NCBI RefSeq assembly: GCF_000832985.1
Contig: NZ_CP009920.1
Coordinates: forward strand, 3,156,501-3,220,500
Source of the DNA: Priestia megaterium NBRC 15308 = ATCC 14581
GTDB lineage: Bacteria > Bacillota > Bacilli > Bacillales > Bacillaceae_H
Reading direction: 5' to 3'
DNA length: 64,000 nucleotides
Part shown: positions 56,081 through 63,527 of the stretch, piece after piece
Numbering within the stretch: the stretch's first letter is position 1
Layout of the letters: each line of letters starts with the position of its first letter
Notes under the pieces: model-generated
The model's database searches: none
What the model saw: only the letters and a program-made list of their open reading frames with translations
Told to the model about the DNA's origin: nothing
Position numbers and translations under genes: made by a program

Positions 56081-56120
56081 AAGGGTGATGCTTCTTCATA
56101 GAGGCATCACCCTTATTGTT
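56081..56120. terminator. bidirectional terminator between converging genes
   Basis: AAGGGTGATGC / GCATCACCCTT stem at 56081-56114, ending next to the glycosyltransferase stop. Confidence 0.85.
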
Positions 56121-57621
56121 AAGCTTCGATTCGTTTTCGCAGCGTCCAAATCTGGTAAAACATATAAAGAGACTGATAGATGGTCAAATACGTCAGTAGA
56201 ATCCACCCGTTCATTAAGTACGGATAAATGGCTTGCTGTACAGAAGGACTCGTTAAGTAATCACGGAAATAAATGCATAGGACAACAATCATGCCTGTAA
56301 ACGCAAAGCCCGTTAAAATCCCTTGCCCTAATTTACTGCGCGTTTTCCCGTTTTCGGCGTTGTATTGATTCGCCCAGCCGTCTTTTTTATTCGCAGCAAG
56401 CCTTTCCATCCATACTTGACCAAACGTAATCAAGTTCACCCATAAATAAATTTCCGGACTAATCAAAAGACCGGCCAGTATCACATCAATCGGCCTGTGC
56501 ATCGGCGTTTTGACAGCGAGCATAATATTTAAGACAGAAGCTAACGCAATTGGAATAATCCAAAGCCACGACCAGTAAAATTGATCGGTCGCAAGCGCAG
56601 CCGATAACAATAAAACAAACAGCAGGCGAATAAGTAAATCACAAAGCGTTTTGATCTGTGAACGCCACAGCTTTCCTTTATGCTTGGTTCTAACGTCCAA
56701 GTTTCCATTTGTCAGTAAATCGACCGTCCCAGACTTCCATTTATTACGCTGTTCACGATACGTGTGATAGCTTCTCATCGAGTCCACGAAACAGCGAGCG
56801 CCTGGACTGATTAACGTTTTCCAATTGGATTTTTGCAGCTGCCATGTCAGAAGCATATCTTCCACGTCGCTGTCATTTTGCCAAGGACCGTCAAGCTTAT
56901 TTTCTTCCACGATATTTTGAAGCGCTTCCGGTCGGAACAGCGTAGCCTGACCGCCGAGTACATACGTGCTTCCGCCGTGGTACTGAAGATCTAACAGCCA
57001 GCTCGCCATATCCTGCTTTTGCTGATGGGTCCACCACCGAGCTATCGGTCCGCCGTACTCGCCGCTTGCGAGCTTTTCCTCGTAGTGCACATCATCTTTT
57101 GAGAGCGAGCTTTTCTTTTTAGGCATTCTCATCGTATATTTTGCCATCACGCCGCCGATGTTTCGCGACGTCATTAAATCTTCCCATAAATTAATGAGTG
57201 CTTTCGGAGCTAAGCGGCTGTCTGCATCCATCCCTAAAATCGCTTTAATCGACTCTTTATACAGCTGCTGATATTTCGTCAGCGTTGTATTGTATAAATC
57301 CAGTGTATCTCCATATATCTTTTTCCAAGCCGTATTTAACGCGCCGACTTTTCGTTGTTTATTACCTTCAGTGACCAGTACTTTTACATTTAAATCAAAT
57401 TCATCTCCGGCCAGCTCCGCTTTTTCTTTTGTGCGGTCCGTACAGTTATCTGCAATCACAAACACATCAAGCTCCACATTATTCGGAAGAAGCTGATCGC
57501 CTAACCCTGCCAAGCAGTCGCGAATTGATTTCTCTTCATTGTGCGCCGGAATAAAAGCCACAATGCGCGGCCTCATATACGAAGCTCCAATACTTCCAGT
57601 AACAACACGCTGATTGTTCAT
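56119..57621 (-). CDS. membrane glycosyltransferase family 2 (processive polysaccharide synthase type)
   Basis: 500 residues: a GT-A domain (IVAFIPAHNEEKSIRDCL, donor-site Asp in VIADNCTD and DADSRL, acceptor-side DSDVEDMLLTW, and the Q-R-N-K-W variant of QxxRW) followed by about five C-terminal helices. The layout is that of membrane polysaccharide synthases like PgaC or BcsA-type enzymes, which extrude the polymer they build. Its leader carries a c-di-GMP-I riboswitch, so its expression should follow c-di-GMP level. Monocistronic, with AAAGGA 5 bases before the ATG. The polymer is unknown. Confidence 0.9.
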   Translation of the reverse strand: MNNQRVVTGSIGASYMRPRIVAFIPAHNEEKSIRDCLAGLGDQLLPNNVELDVFVIADNCTDRTKEKAELAGDEFDLNVKVLVTEGNKQRKVGALNTAWKKIYGDTLDLYNTTLTKYQQLYKESIKAILGMDADSRLAPKALINLWEDLMTSRNIGGVMAKYTMRMPKKKSSLSKDDVHYEEKLASGEYGGPIARWWTHQQKQDMASWLLDLQYHGGSTYVLGGQATLFRPEALQNIVEENKLDGPWQNDSDVEDMLLTWQLQKSNWKTLISPGARCFVDSMRSYHTYREQRNKWKSGTVDLLTNGNLDVRTKHKGKLWRSQIKTLCDLLIRLLFVLLLSAALATDQFYWSWLWIIPIALASVLNIMLAVKTPMHRPIDVILAGLLISPEIYLWVNLITFGQVWMERLAANKKDGWANQYNAENGKTRSKLGQGILTGFAFTGMIVVLCIYFRDYLTSPSVQQAIYPYLMNGWILLTYLTIYQSLYMFYQIWTLRKRIEA

Positions 57622-57644: not shown

Positions 57645-57730
57645 TCAGGAAACCCAGCCATCCTAGTCCTATGACCTTAGACCTGAGGTTTTGCGTCCCA
57701 GCCTTTCGACTGGTTTGCCTTTAACTGAAC
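57645..57730 (-). promoter_or_regulatory. c-di-GMP-I (GEMM) riboswitch
   Basis: Reverse-strand leader of the glycosyltransferase. Core AAAGGCAAACC, GTCGAAAGGC tetraloop arm, then GGGACGCAAAACCTC and GGTCTAAGG, and the receptor-side GGATGGCTGGGTTTCC. All conserved blocks of the c-di-GMP-I aptamer are present in order. A CCTGA-TACA-TCAGG hairpin follows and ends at the purine run before the start codon, so control of translation initiation is plausible. Confidence 0.93.
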
Positions 57731-60466: not shown

Positions 60467-62107
60467 ATGAGAATTAATCACAATATTGCGGCGTTGAATA
60501 CGTATCGTCAGTTTAACAATGCAAATGCTGCGCAAGGTAAATCAATGGAGAAACTATCTTCTGGTCTTCGTATTAACAGTGCGGCTGACGATGCTGCAGG
60601 TCTTGCGATTTCTGAGAAAATGCGTGGACAGATTCGCGGATTGGATATGGCTTCTAAAAATGCTCAAGATGGGGTTTCTTTAATTCAAACAGCCGAAGGC
60701 GCGTTAACTGAAACACATGATATTTTACAAAGAATGAAAGAGTTAGCTACGCAAGCAGCCAATGATACAAATACTACAGATGACCGTGGTGAAATTCAAA
60801 AAGAGATTAACCAATTAACATCTGAGGTTAACCGTATTGCAAATACTACAGAGTTCAATACAAAGAAAGTATTGGATGGTGGTAAATCATCAGCAGTAAC
60901 AAGTGGGGGAACGCCAGCGGCAGCAACAGCGCCAAAATTAGAAGGAAGCGACGTCTCAGCACTGCTTAATTCTGACATTTCAGCTACAAGTATTACCTTG
61001 AATGGGAATGCAGTATCCCTAACAAATGTTGATGGTCTAGATGGTTCAGGAACACCGGTTGCAATGGATGATTTTGTACAAGCGTTACAAAGTGATATCG
61101 ATGCAGTGTATGACGGAACGTCAAATGGAGGAGAAACCTTTAAAGTTGCAAAAACAGAAGATGGTAAAGGGTTTACAATTGAGTCTTCAAAAAGTGGCTC
61201 ATCTGCTTCTGTAAACATCACAGCAAATGCTGATTCGGCTACTCTAGGTTTAACTAAAGATGCTACAACAAATGCAACAGCAACTGGTGCAGATGCTCCA
61301 GCAGGTGGAGCTACGGGCTCTTTCACAGCCACCCTTCAAATTGGAGCGAATAAGGGTCAGGCATTTCAAATTGATATTAGTGACATGAGTGCATCTGCAC
61401 TGGGAATTAGTCAAGCTTCTACGGCAAGTGGGGGAACACCAGCGGCAGCAACAGCGCCGAAATTAGAAGGAAGCGACGTCTCAGCACTGCTTAATTCTGA
61501 CATTTCAGCTACAAGTATTACCTTGAATGGGAATGCAGTATCCCTAACAAATGTTGATGGTCTAGATGGTTCAGGAACACCAGTTGCAATGGATGATTTT
61601 GTACAAGCGTTACAAAGTGATATCGATGCAGTGTATGACGGAACGTCAAATGGAGGAGAAACCTTTAAAGTTGCAAAAACAGAAGATGGTAAAGGGTTTA
61701 CAATTGAGTCTTCAAAAAGTGGCTCATCTGCTTCTGTAAACATTACAGCAAATGCTGATTCGGCTACTCTAGGTTTAACTAAAGATGCTACAACAAATGC
61801 AACAGCAACTGGTGCAGACGCTCCAGCAGGTGGAACTACGGGTTCTTTCACAGCACAAGCTGGAGTAAGTAATGGAACAGACAGCAGTTCAACTGAATCT
61901 GGATTAGATGTATCAACTCATGCTAATGCAACAAATGCTATTGAGGTACTTGATAAAGCAATTGCAAAAGTTTCTGGAGAACGTTCTAAACTAGGGGCAT
62001 ATCAAAATCGCTTAGATCACACTATCAATAACTTAAATACGTCTTCTGAAAACCTAACTGCAGCGGAATCTCGCATCCGTGACGTAGATTATGTTTTAGC
62101 TGCATAA
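60467..62107 (+). CDS. hag: flagellin, exon 1 (colinear frame runs 18 bases into intron 1)
   Basis: Flagellar filament subunit. The N-terminal D0/D1 region is canonical (MRINHNIAALNTYRQFNNAN; SSGLRINSAADDAAGLAIS), followed by a variable region that contains a 428-base tandem-like duplication (60902-61329 and 61427-61854). The D1 C-terminal part (AIAKVSGERSKLGAYQNRLD; AESRIRDVD) ends at codon 541 (62087-62089). The colinear frame then adds YVLAA and stops, which would lack the D0 helix needed for assembly. The missing part lies in exons at 62450-62536 and 62891-62935, predicted spliced length 584 residues. SigD promoter and CsrA leader upstream; GGAGG 9 bases before ATG. Confidence 0.95.
   Translation: MRINHNIAALNTYRQFNNANAAQGKSMEKLSSGLRINSAADDAAGLAISEKMRGQIRGLDMASKNAQDGVSLIQTAEGALTETHDILQRMKELATQAANDTNTTDDRGEIQKEINQLTSEVNRIANTTEFNTKKVLDGGKSSAVTSGGTPAAATAPKLEGSDVSALLNSDISATSITLNGNAVSLTNVDGLDGSGTPVAMDDFVQALQSDIDAVYDGTSNGGETFKVAKTEDGKGFTIESSKSGSSASVNITANADSATLGLTKDATTNATATGADAPAGGATGSFTATLQIGANKGQAFQIDISDMSASALGISQASTASGGTPAAATAPKLEGSDVSALLNSDISATSITLNGNAVSLTNVDGLDGSGTPVAMDDFVQALQSDIDAVYDGTSNGGETFKVAKTEDGKGFTIESSKSGSSASVNITANADSATLGLTKDATTNATATGADAPAGGTTGSFTAQAGVSNGTDSSSTESGLDVSTHANATNAIEVLDKAIAKVSGERSKLGAYQNRLDHTINNLNTSSENLTAAESRIRDVDYVLAA
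60902..61329 (+). repeat. flagellin internal duplication, copy 1
   Basis: 428 bases repeated 525 bases (175 codons) downstream, in frame. I count about seven base differences, only one altering an amino acid (Ala/Thr near the end). Confidence 0.95.
61427..61854 (+). repeat. flagellin internal duplication, copy 2
   Basis: Partner of 60902-61329. The 97 bases between them encode TLQIGANKGQAFQIDISDMS, a motif normally found once at the start of the conserved C-terminal half, so the duplicated unit is variable domain plus this edge. Confidence 0.95.
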
Positions 62108-62449
62108 GCAGTTACAAGCACAGTCGTCCTAGCTGGTAACGGCTAGTGATTATTATTGGGTGAATTGCTGGAAACCCCTTAGAGCTTTTCTTGCCACAAC
62201 GTAGTTAGAAATGACAAGCGTGATGGCGCGAAAAAAGAAAAGATTGGGCAATCAGCAGCCAAGCTCCTGTCTTGAAAAAGTGGAGAAGGTTCAACGACTA
62301 GGATAGACCATCTAAGGCAAATGCTATGATGATGAAATCCATAGGTGAAACAATAACCATCAGTATTGTGAATCCGAAGTGCCCGACCCCTACTGTAATA
62401 TGAGGGTGAAGATATAGTCTAGTCATTTATGAAAATAAATGTTCGCACG
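62090..62449 (+). ncRNA. group I intron 1 in flagellin
   Basis: 360 bases. Conserved group I core in order: P element around TGAATTGCTGG (62161), Q AATCAGCAGCCAAGC (62250), R GTTCAACGACTA (62289-62300), S GAAGATATAGTCT (62409-62420); GACTA of R pairs with TAGTC of S to form P7. A CTAGC / GCTAG hairpin precedes the core (P2) and a TCATTTAT-GAAA-ATAAATG hairpin follows it (P9). The 5' exon ends in T (62089) and the intron ends in G (62449). Joining restores RDVD-MAKEMM. Only three clear P1 pairs (GAT with GTC). No endonuclease gene. Confidence 0.9.
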
Positions 62450-62536
62450 ATGGCGAAAGAAATGATGGAACAAACAAAGAATTCAATTCTTTCTCAAGCA
62501 TCACAAGCAATGTTGGCTCAATCTAACCAGATGCCT
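62450..62536 (+). CDS. hag: flagellin, exon 2 (29 codons)
   Basis: Encodes MAKEMMEQTKNSILSQASQA then MLAQSNQMP, the conserved C-terminal D0 helix of flagellin, in the frame of exon 1. Without splicing of intron 2 the frame simply continues through QGVLQLLR to TAA 62561-62563, a complete flagellin end. Confidence 0.88.
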
Positions 62537-62890
62537 CAAGGAGTTCTACAACTCTTGAGGTAATTGATTAAAGGGCGTCTAGCTTGGTAACGAGCTAGAG
62601 TATAACTGGGTGAATTGCTGGGACTTCCTAAAGCTTTATCAACCACAACGTAACTGCAAACGGTAAGCGTAACGGTTTGAAAATGATGAAGATAACACAA
62701 TGGATTATCAGCAGCCAAGCTCCTGTGAGGAAACTCTGGAGAAGGTTCAACGACTAGAGGATACGGTCTAAGGTGAAAACTAGGATTATGAATCTCGTAG
62801 GGCAGTGAAAGCTGTTCGAAGTGCCCAGCTCCATGCAAAACATGGATGAAGATATAGTCTATTCTGTAATCGAAAGATACAGTCGCAAAG
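62537..62890 (+). ncRNA. group I intron 2 in flagellin
   Basis: 354 bases, clearly related to intron 1: GAATTGCTGGG (62613), ATCAGCAGCCAAGC (62707), R GTTCAACGACTA (62745-62756), S GAAGATATAGTCT (62848-62860), P9 hairpin, then GTCGCAAAG like TTCGCACG of intron 1. The 5' site after ATGCCT (62531-62536) is supported by six pairs with GGGCGT (62573-62578), including the terminal T-G pair, and by the same 33-36 base spacing to the internal guide as in intron 1. An alternative 5' site after GCT (62518) would restore the canonical LAQANQQPQGVLQLLR but lacks pairing. No endonuclease gene. Confidence 0.88.
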
Positions 62891-62935
62891 CAAGCGAACC
62901 AACAGCCACAAGGGGTTTTACAACTTCTTCGTTAA
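62891..62935 (+). CDS. hag: flagellin, exon 3 (last 14 codons and stop)
   Basis: QANQQPQGVLQLLR and TAA at 62933-62935, the usual flagellin terminus. It begins right after the predicted intron end G (62890), 30 bases after the S element, as in intron 1 (29 bases). Confidence 0.85.
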   Translation, partial: QANQQPQGVLQLLR

Positions 62936-62945
62936 TTTTAAATAT

Positions 62946-62978
62946 AAAAGAGGTTCTAGGTTTTCTAGAGTCTCTTTT
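62946..62978 (+). terminator. terminator after hag
   Basis: AGAGGTTCTAG / CTAGAGTCTCT hairpin and T5, just behind the exon 3 stop, confirming that the transcript extends to exon 3. Confidence 0.88.
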
Positions 62979-63075
62979 TATCTATTTGAGACAAGTAAAT
63001 TAGTTAGGGCATTATATTAATTTGTAGAGGAATTACGAACATTTCAATTTTAAAACAATCTGAGTGGAGGAACCG

Positions 63076-63306: not shown

Positions 63307-63326
63307 AAGAAGAAATGTGGTGTTAT

Positions 63327-63527
63327 ATGAATATCGCACTTATGTCAATGTCATTAAGCCAAGGAAAAGTCCAACAGCAAGCTTCTCTATCAGTCATGAA
63401 AATGGCAATAGGAAACACCGAACAGCAAGGAGAAGCTGTTAAGGAGTTAATCAACAGTTCTAATGTAAAAGCACTTCAGCAAGCCGCTCAGCCGCATTTA
63501 GGTAGAAATATTGACTTGAAGTTATAA
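63327..63527 (+). CDS. YjfB-type putative motility protein
   Basis: 66 residues starting MNIALMSMSLSQGKVQQQAS and ending PHLGRNIDLKL, which fits the YjfB family (MDIAALSMSMSQ ... PHLGxNIDxxV) associated with motility. The ATG at 63327 agrees with the family start; an earlier in-frame ATG at 63315 does not. Weak ribosome site GTGGTG. Likely co-transcribed with the preceding gene, 20 bases away. Confidence 0.8.
   Translation: MNIALMSMSLSQGKVQQQASLSVMKMAIGNTEQQGEAVKELINSSNVKALQQAAQPHLGRNIDLKL

Follow-up and report, generated by a model that had tools for sequence, protein, structure and literature searches.

A Priestia megaterium flagellin gene with two group I introns, the second carrying an in-frame replica of the final exon and predicted to be optional

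Where does the flagellin gene of Priestia megaterium NBRC 15308 = ATCC 14581 end? In the 64,000-nucleotide stretch analyzed here (contig NZ_CP009920.1, positions 3,156,501 to 3,220,500; hereafter the window, in whose coordinates all features are given, on the + strand unless stated), an open reading frame at 60467-62107 begins as a flagellin, with the Pfam domain Flagellin_N (PF00669; 1.7e-49) and the first 52 of the 86 positions of Flagellin_C (PF00700). As the original prediction had it, and as the reading of this frame confirms, it then stops early at 62107, and the rest of the conserved C-terminus lies further downstream, in pieces separated by two candidate group I introns. That prediction overlooked that the last C-terminal segment is present twice, at 62519-62563 within intron 2 and at 62891-62935 as exon 3. 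The locus accordingly poses two linked questions: which of the two copies ends the protein, and what might maintain both of them?

Both introns are group I by covariance model. Rfam Intron_gpI (RF00028, gathering score 50), the model with which the original assignment could be checked, matches intron 1 at 62104-62441 with 89.8 bits (E 1.2e-21) and intron 2 at 62546-62882 with 72.7 bits (E 1.6e-16), and self-splicing is predicted for both. By eye, the stretch between P7 and P3 has the size of a P7.1/P7.2 extension; these introns may belong to subgroup IA. No ORF of at least 60 aa lies wholly within either intron on the coding strand, in agreement with the earlier reading that neither holds an endonuclease gene; a 60-aa ORF (62821-63003, + strand) extends out of intron 2, and a 100-aa ORF (62536-62838) lies within it on the opposite strand. 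The same genome contains two more group I introns at other loci (L002 and L003; 82.9 and 74.8 bits), the first adjoining an ORF that by eye resembles a phage tape-measure protein and the second splitting a gene that by eye is ribonucleotide-reductase-like.

For comparative material, 84,980 species genomes were scanned with a pattern made of the intron core and guide, from which the replica was excluded. This pattern found 83 stretches, with 24 genus names among the 80 matches listed; these names include Paenibacillus sp. and Pseudomonas sp., both of which may be mislabelled. A second pattern, which finds both introns and again does not include the replica, matched 92 of the 397 genomes of the order. 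Pattern scans, an Rfam-based set and fetched loci together provided 105 distinct intron-2 contexts, from which a degenerate locus (L040) was excluded; three weak covariance matches (G016, G065 and G075) fall outside the gathered loci. Exon 3 is intact in 100 of these contexts, that is, in all where it is readable, and four of the five that give no exon 3 reading are near the end of their locus. Setting aside these five and L133, which has no replica, leaves 99 contexts with both ends.

Two introns in one flagellin had been thought unusual, an impression that the wider sample does not bear out: among 87 distinct intron-1 contexts, intron 2 comes next in 44 and does not in 42, and one is cut off. 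From the other side, intron 1 is also present in 45 of the 105 intron-2 genes, and the gene is continuous at that point in 58; the other two, left unclassified by our script, have upstream ends that look like intron 1 ends. Several genomes have at least two intron-bearing flagellin genes close together (L117 and L006 in G005; L121 and L013 in G015; L118-L119 in G018; L215 in G338).

Intron 1 (62090-62449) separates exon 1 (60467-62089) from exon 2 and, at 360 bases, has the length first estimated for it. Its boundaries, GAT^TATG (62089/62090) and CGCACG^ATGGCG (62449/62450), fit both its P1 and the relatives without intron 1, in which GAT runs directly into ATGGCG. In the predicted P1, the guide GUC (62123-62125) pairs with the exon's GAU and sets the last U of the exon opposite a G at the cleavage point. 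Of 40 unconstrained minimum-energy folds, 25 contain this pair; in the remaining 15, the expected splice-site pair is absent from the free minimum, the forced fold being weaker by 0.2-0.8 kcal/mol. A version of this P1 with a three-base bulge was also considered and dropped in favor of the extended helix. At the 3' splice site, intron and exon 2 together build a hairpin (62442-62457; TTCGC ACG^ATG GCGAA), of whose pair cells 251 out of 255 are paired across 51 contexts. The intron-terminal G that had been noted for both introns precedes the 3' site in these 51 contexts and in the 100 contexts tabulated for intron 2.

Ribosomes on RNA that retains intron 1 would face an in-frame stop at 62105-62107 and make a protein that ends in DVDYVLAA and lacks the last part of the C-terminal domain. 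To this extent the original expectation, that a complete C-terminus requires the removal of both introns, holds good: as read from the sequence, intron 1 has no replica as a safeguard, and its removal would be obligatory for flagellin. The unspliced tail itself (62090-62107 in the window, together with its counterparts in relatives) reads YALAA plus a stop in 48 of the 76 distinct versions. In the tails read, the stop always comes next, there is no likeness to exon 2, and the uniformity is above what would be expected of a mere P1 loop.

The limits proposed for intron 2 proved right at one end and 18 bases off at the other. It most likely begins at GCT^CAA (62518/62519, the 5' splice site) and not after the CCT at 62536, a placement that rests on the invariance of GCT and on P1 folds; intron 2 (62519-62890) is then most likely 372 bases long instead of about 354, and exon 2 (62450-62518), which sets the introns apart, most likely 69 instead of 87. 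The Ala codon at 62516-62518 is GCT in all 85 intron-2 copies, and the codon after it is CAA in 84 of them (the codon counts at this site and in the replica are from a set of 85 copies that predates the order-wide one); in the final set, all 101 gene ends that have intron 2 carry GCT, versus 26 of the 46 that lack it. In the predicted P1 base, GCU^C (62516-62519) pairs with the guide strand GGGC (62573-62576), which begins nine bases past the replica stop codon. This GCUC/GGGC pairing, with a U.G pair at the 5' splice site, is found in 78 of 81 free minimum-energy folds of intron 2.

If the intron began instead at CCT^CAAGG (62536/62537), the spliced protein would be six residues longer. AUGCCU can indeed pair with GGGCGU in the window (GATGCCT/GGGCGTC), and the Pro/Ser/Thr codon at that point ends in U in 76 of 85 copies. 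Yet this U is missing from the other nine, whereas GCT is invariant; forcing the fold to the CCT site weakens it in all 81 intron-2 sequences; the spliced product would carry a duplicated hexapeptide; and L133 lacks the site altogether. We therefore regard this start as very improbable.

The 3' splice site of intron 2 stands where it was first placed, at 62890/62891, in the loop of a small hairpin (62884-62896; CGC AAAG^CAA GCG) built jointly by the intron and exon 3 (62891-62935). Across 100 contexts, 299 of its 300 pair cells are paired, and the stem is CGC/GCG in 50 and GGC/GCC in 47, a compensatory change that spans the boundary. The end position of the Rfam match was rejected as the 3' splice site, as it would break both the reading frame and this exon-spanning hairpin.

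Given these boundaries, intron 2 opens with 45 bases (62519-62563) that are in frame with exon 2 and consist of 14 codons and a stop, encoding QSNQMPQGVLQLLR, while exon 3 encodes QANQQPQGVLQLLR, likewise followed by a stop. The former is what we term the replica, a spare gene end. With intron 1 removed, the computed readings give a flagellin of 578 residues with or without intron 2. In this genome the two predicted products are of equal length and two residues apart, the replica having S for A and M for Q (…AMLAQSNQMPQGVLQLLR in the replica product), and the predicted C-terminal tryptic peptides are NSILSQASQAMLAQANQQPQGVLQLLR if the RNA is spliced and NSILSQASQAMLAQSNQMPQGVLQLLR if it is unspliced. 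The 37-residue unspliced end (exon 2 plus replica) aligns to the last residue of 5wjt_A, a flagellin of solved structure (268-304, E 8.7e-12), and covers the end of Flagellin_C (positions 51-86 of 86). The expected loss of the C-terminus thus does not extend to retention of intron 2, whose own 14 codons complete it; taken as a whole, the original observation is partly confirmed and its interpretation partly supported.

This arrangement is widely conserved: 14 codons and a stop follow GCT in 104 of the 105 intron-2 contexts. Across the 99 contexts with both ends, replica and exon 3 share 12 of 14 residues in 65, 11 in 27, 13 in five, 10 in one and nine in one, with a mean DNA identity of 70% (range 60-80%). 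The differences fall mostly at position 2, where the replica has S in 84 of 99 and exon 3 has A in 98, and at position 5, where exon 3 has Q in 90 and the replica has M in 60 and otherwise varies widely; position 8 differs between the ends in three contexts. The last residue is the same in both ends in 96 of 99 (R in 80, Q in 12, G in four), its codon being identical in six, and it differs in three (K/R twice, Q/R once). Two other accounts of the duplication were considered and set aside: a role of the replica in homologous recombination would be unlikely at about 70% identity, and gene conversion between the two copies does not fit the differing Arg codons.

We favor, with a probability of roughly three in four, the reading that this is a flagellin gene with two related group I introns, of which the second is optional and carries a built-in fail-safe gene end. 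We infer that spliced and unspliced RNA both arise in the cell and are both translated, and that what maintains the replica is the coupling of translation to transcription, under which RNA not yet spliced would otherwise yield truncated flagellin. Flagellin is probably heavily translated, with ribosomes close behind the polymerase, and were a ribosome to reach intron 2 before the ribozyme is complete, a defective end would be the normal outcome. On the replica, a ribosome that arrives before splicing would instead complete a full-length flagellin and stop ahead of the guide GGGC. Across contexts, the guide strand starts 7-12 bases past the replica stop, so that a terminating ribosome should cover the guide and block P1. 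RNA that escapes this block would splice and then use exon 3, and a flagellin of standard length would result either way. More tentatively, the ribozyme may have made itself harmless by carrying the exon that it displaced: replica translation would compete with splicing for the same RNA, the gene would be indifferent to splicing, and the ratio of the flagellin forms might be set by translation load or temperature.

One alternative, which we consider rather unlikely, is a regulated switch in which the splicing state, through temperature or translation rate, selects between flagellin ends with different filament properties. The concentration of the differences at positions 2 and 5 would suit such a switch, as would the closeness of the guide to the replica stop, where a terminating ribosome should mask it; temperature-dependent self-splicing, moreover, figures in the title of the 2012 paper of Hayakawa and Ishizuka on flagellin introns, cited in PMC3984707. 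Against this, the two ends are nearly alike, and the wide variation at replica position 5 fits tolerance and not a tuned isoform.

Distinctly unlikely, in our assessment, is a reading in which intron 2 always leaves the RNA and the replica, serving as P1 structure only, resembles the exon by chance. It is true that the replica makes up much of P1 and that its codons favor the hairpin: in 96 of 99 contexts, the native P1 fold exceeds the average of 30 synonymous shuffles in stability, with a mean energy of -17.0 kcal/mol versus -11.7 for the shuffles and -9.4 with exon 3 codons. That synonymous codon swaps weaken P1 indicates that these 45 bases are constrained both as protein code and as RNA structure. 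Structure alone does not explain why, in 104 of 105 contexts, codon 15 is a stop and the peptide before it looks like a flagellin end, nor does it account for the codon-level constraint, which is specific to the coding frame. The pN/pS of the replica is 0.188 in frame (exon 3, 0.147), as against 0.835 and 3.807 in the other two frames, and its diversity at the three codon positions is 0.169, 0.069 and 0.387. Constraint at the codon level in the replica and exon 3 alike speaks, indirectly, for translation of both RNAs. P1 structure alone can lower pN/pS, because the intron 1 tail, which is no replica, also scores low (five codons, 30 distinct sequences: 0.39 in frame, 0.35 and 0.86 out of frame); the frame contrast is stronger for the replica than for this tail.

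The lineage-specific last residues Q and G, found in both copies, also speak against an exon-like appearance by chance. When exon 3 is permuted among genes, the null means for matches at positions 8 and 14 are 78.8 and 68.9, versus 96 and 96 observed among 99, in a comparison that ignores kinship. Placed on the tree, last-residue agreement amounts to two independent pairs on starred branches and six on all branches, too few for significance.

Locus L133 bears on the same question, as it builds P1 without a replica. Its unspliced reading is QLSNFIKKKLNFLSKMETGRLTW; it retains the 5' site GCT^CAA and the guide, as well as the 3' hairpin, and its exon 3 is intact, ending in QLLQ before the stop. 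In a tree of 99 intron-2 rows (one of 100 having been dropped by a length filter) and eight intron-1 rows taken by order of appearance, L133 falls inside a group of 55 replica-bearing rows (SH-aLRT 95; inner support patchy). Loss of the replica is the simpler reading of this nesting, although the tree by itself cannot separate gain from loss. That L133 keeps its splice sites and exon 3 without a replica argues that splicing is real and the replica dispensable to the ribozyme, and suggests that splicing to exon 3 provides the flagellin end of this gene.

L133 likewise weighs against the view that intron 2 no longer splices, so that the gene would now end functionally on the replica and exon 3 would survive as a relic. 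As this view would have it, the unspliced RNA does encode a complete flagellin of the usual length, but exon 3 is the sole flagellin-like end that L133 possesses. Elsewhere, the intactness of exon 3 wherever it can be read, its pN/pS of 0.147 and the retained 3' splice-site hairpin make a relic quite improbable. An assembly error or a dying gene is scarcely credible: one relative, L040, does have extra stops here, but the same architecture occurs in named genomes of many genera, and the intron pattern in 92 of the 397 genomes of the order. In L040, which is from Oceanobacillus arenosus, the flagellin end is decayed, with an intron 2 core and extra stops in both exon 2 and the replica.

Introns in flagellin genes are already known, and twin introns are common in the loci gathered here; the replica is the element of which we found no description. 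Thermophilic Bacillus/Geobacillus have group I introns in flagellin genes, the subject of Hayakawa and Ishizuka 2009 and 2012 (both cited in PMC3984707), and as far as the titles and one review sentence go, those introns and the present ones have in common that they are group I and interrupt a bacillar flagellin. According to the passage on Twort phage in PMC10136302, introns 2 and 3 of Orf142 are tandem, similar group IA2 introns around a 23-nt exon, which alternative splicing skips. To judge from that passage, the two systems share a pair of closely similar group I introns flanking a short exon; in contrast to Twort, skipping exon 2 here would delete conserved flagellin sequence, and the new element is an intron that encodes the gene end.

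A group II intron of C. tetani gives rise to five surface-protein isoforms, the unspliced RNA included, according to the passage on it in PMC3919590. As there, a bacterial ribozyme intron would yield several isoforms of a surface protein, with the unspliced RNA also coding, an outcome that is predicted in the present case; the C. tetani intron, as that passage portrays it, is group II and reaches distinct isoforms through alternative downstream exons, whereas the group I intron described here repeats an exon, and its two predicted products are almost the same. In mitochondria, mobile elements such as that of Allomyces atp6 bring their own copy of the C-terminus of the host gene, which replaces the original, and the displaced end is not known to be expressed. 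Intron 2 resembles them in that an inserted element carries a copy of the host C-terminus, and differs in that the displaced end is predicted to be kept as a spliced exon. In the open literature searched, outside which most subscription journals lie, we found no report of an intron carrying a second copy of the last exon.

If the fail-safe reading is correct, the P1 helix would serve in recognizing the splice site while also encoding, in frame, a conserved copy of the final exon, and these 45 bases would be a clear example from nature of one sequence constrained both as RNA structure and as protein. A replica-bearing intron would also be a direct answer to how introns may survive in highly expressed bacterial protein genes whose ribosomes trail the polymerase. 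For annotation, it would mean that gene callers may pick either flagellin end, and that database entries for flagellins of these bacteria may break off at intron 1 or finish on the replica.

Some further features of the window deserve mention. Exon 1 contains a duplicated variable region (60900-61199 and 61425-61724, + strand), with copies of at least 300 bases each that are 99% identical. Directly 3' of the flagellin gene is a gene with the Pfam domain YjfB_motility (63315-63527, + strand; E 1.1e-16). On the opposite strand, a c-di-GMP-I riboswitch (57645-57729; 80.3 bits) lies just upstream of a 500-aa ORF (56119-57621) that by eye is glycosyltransferase-like.
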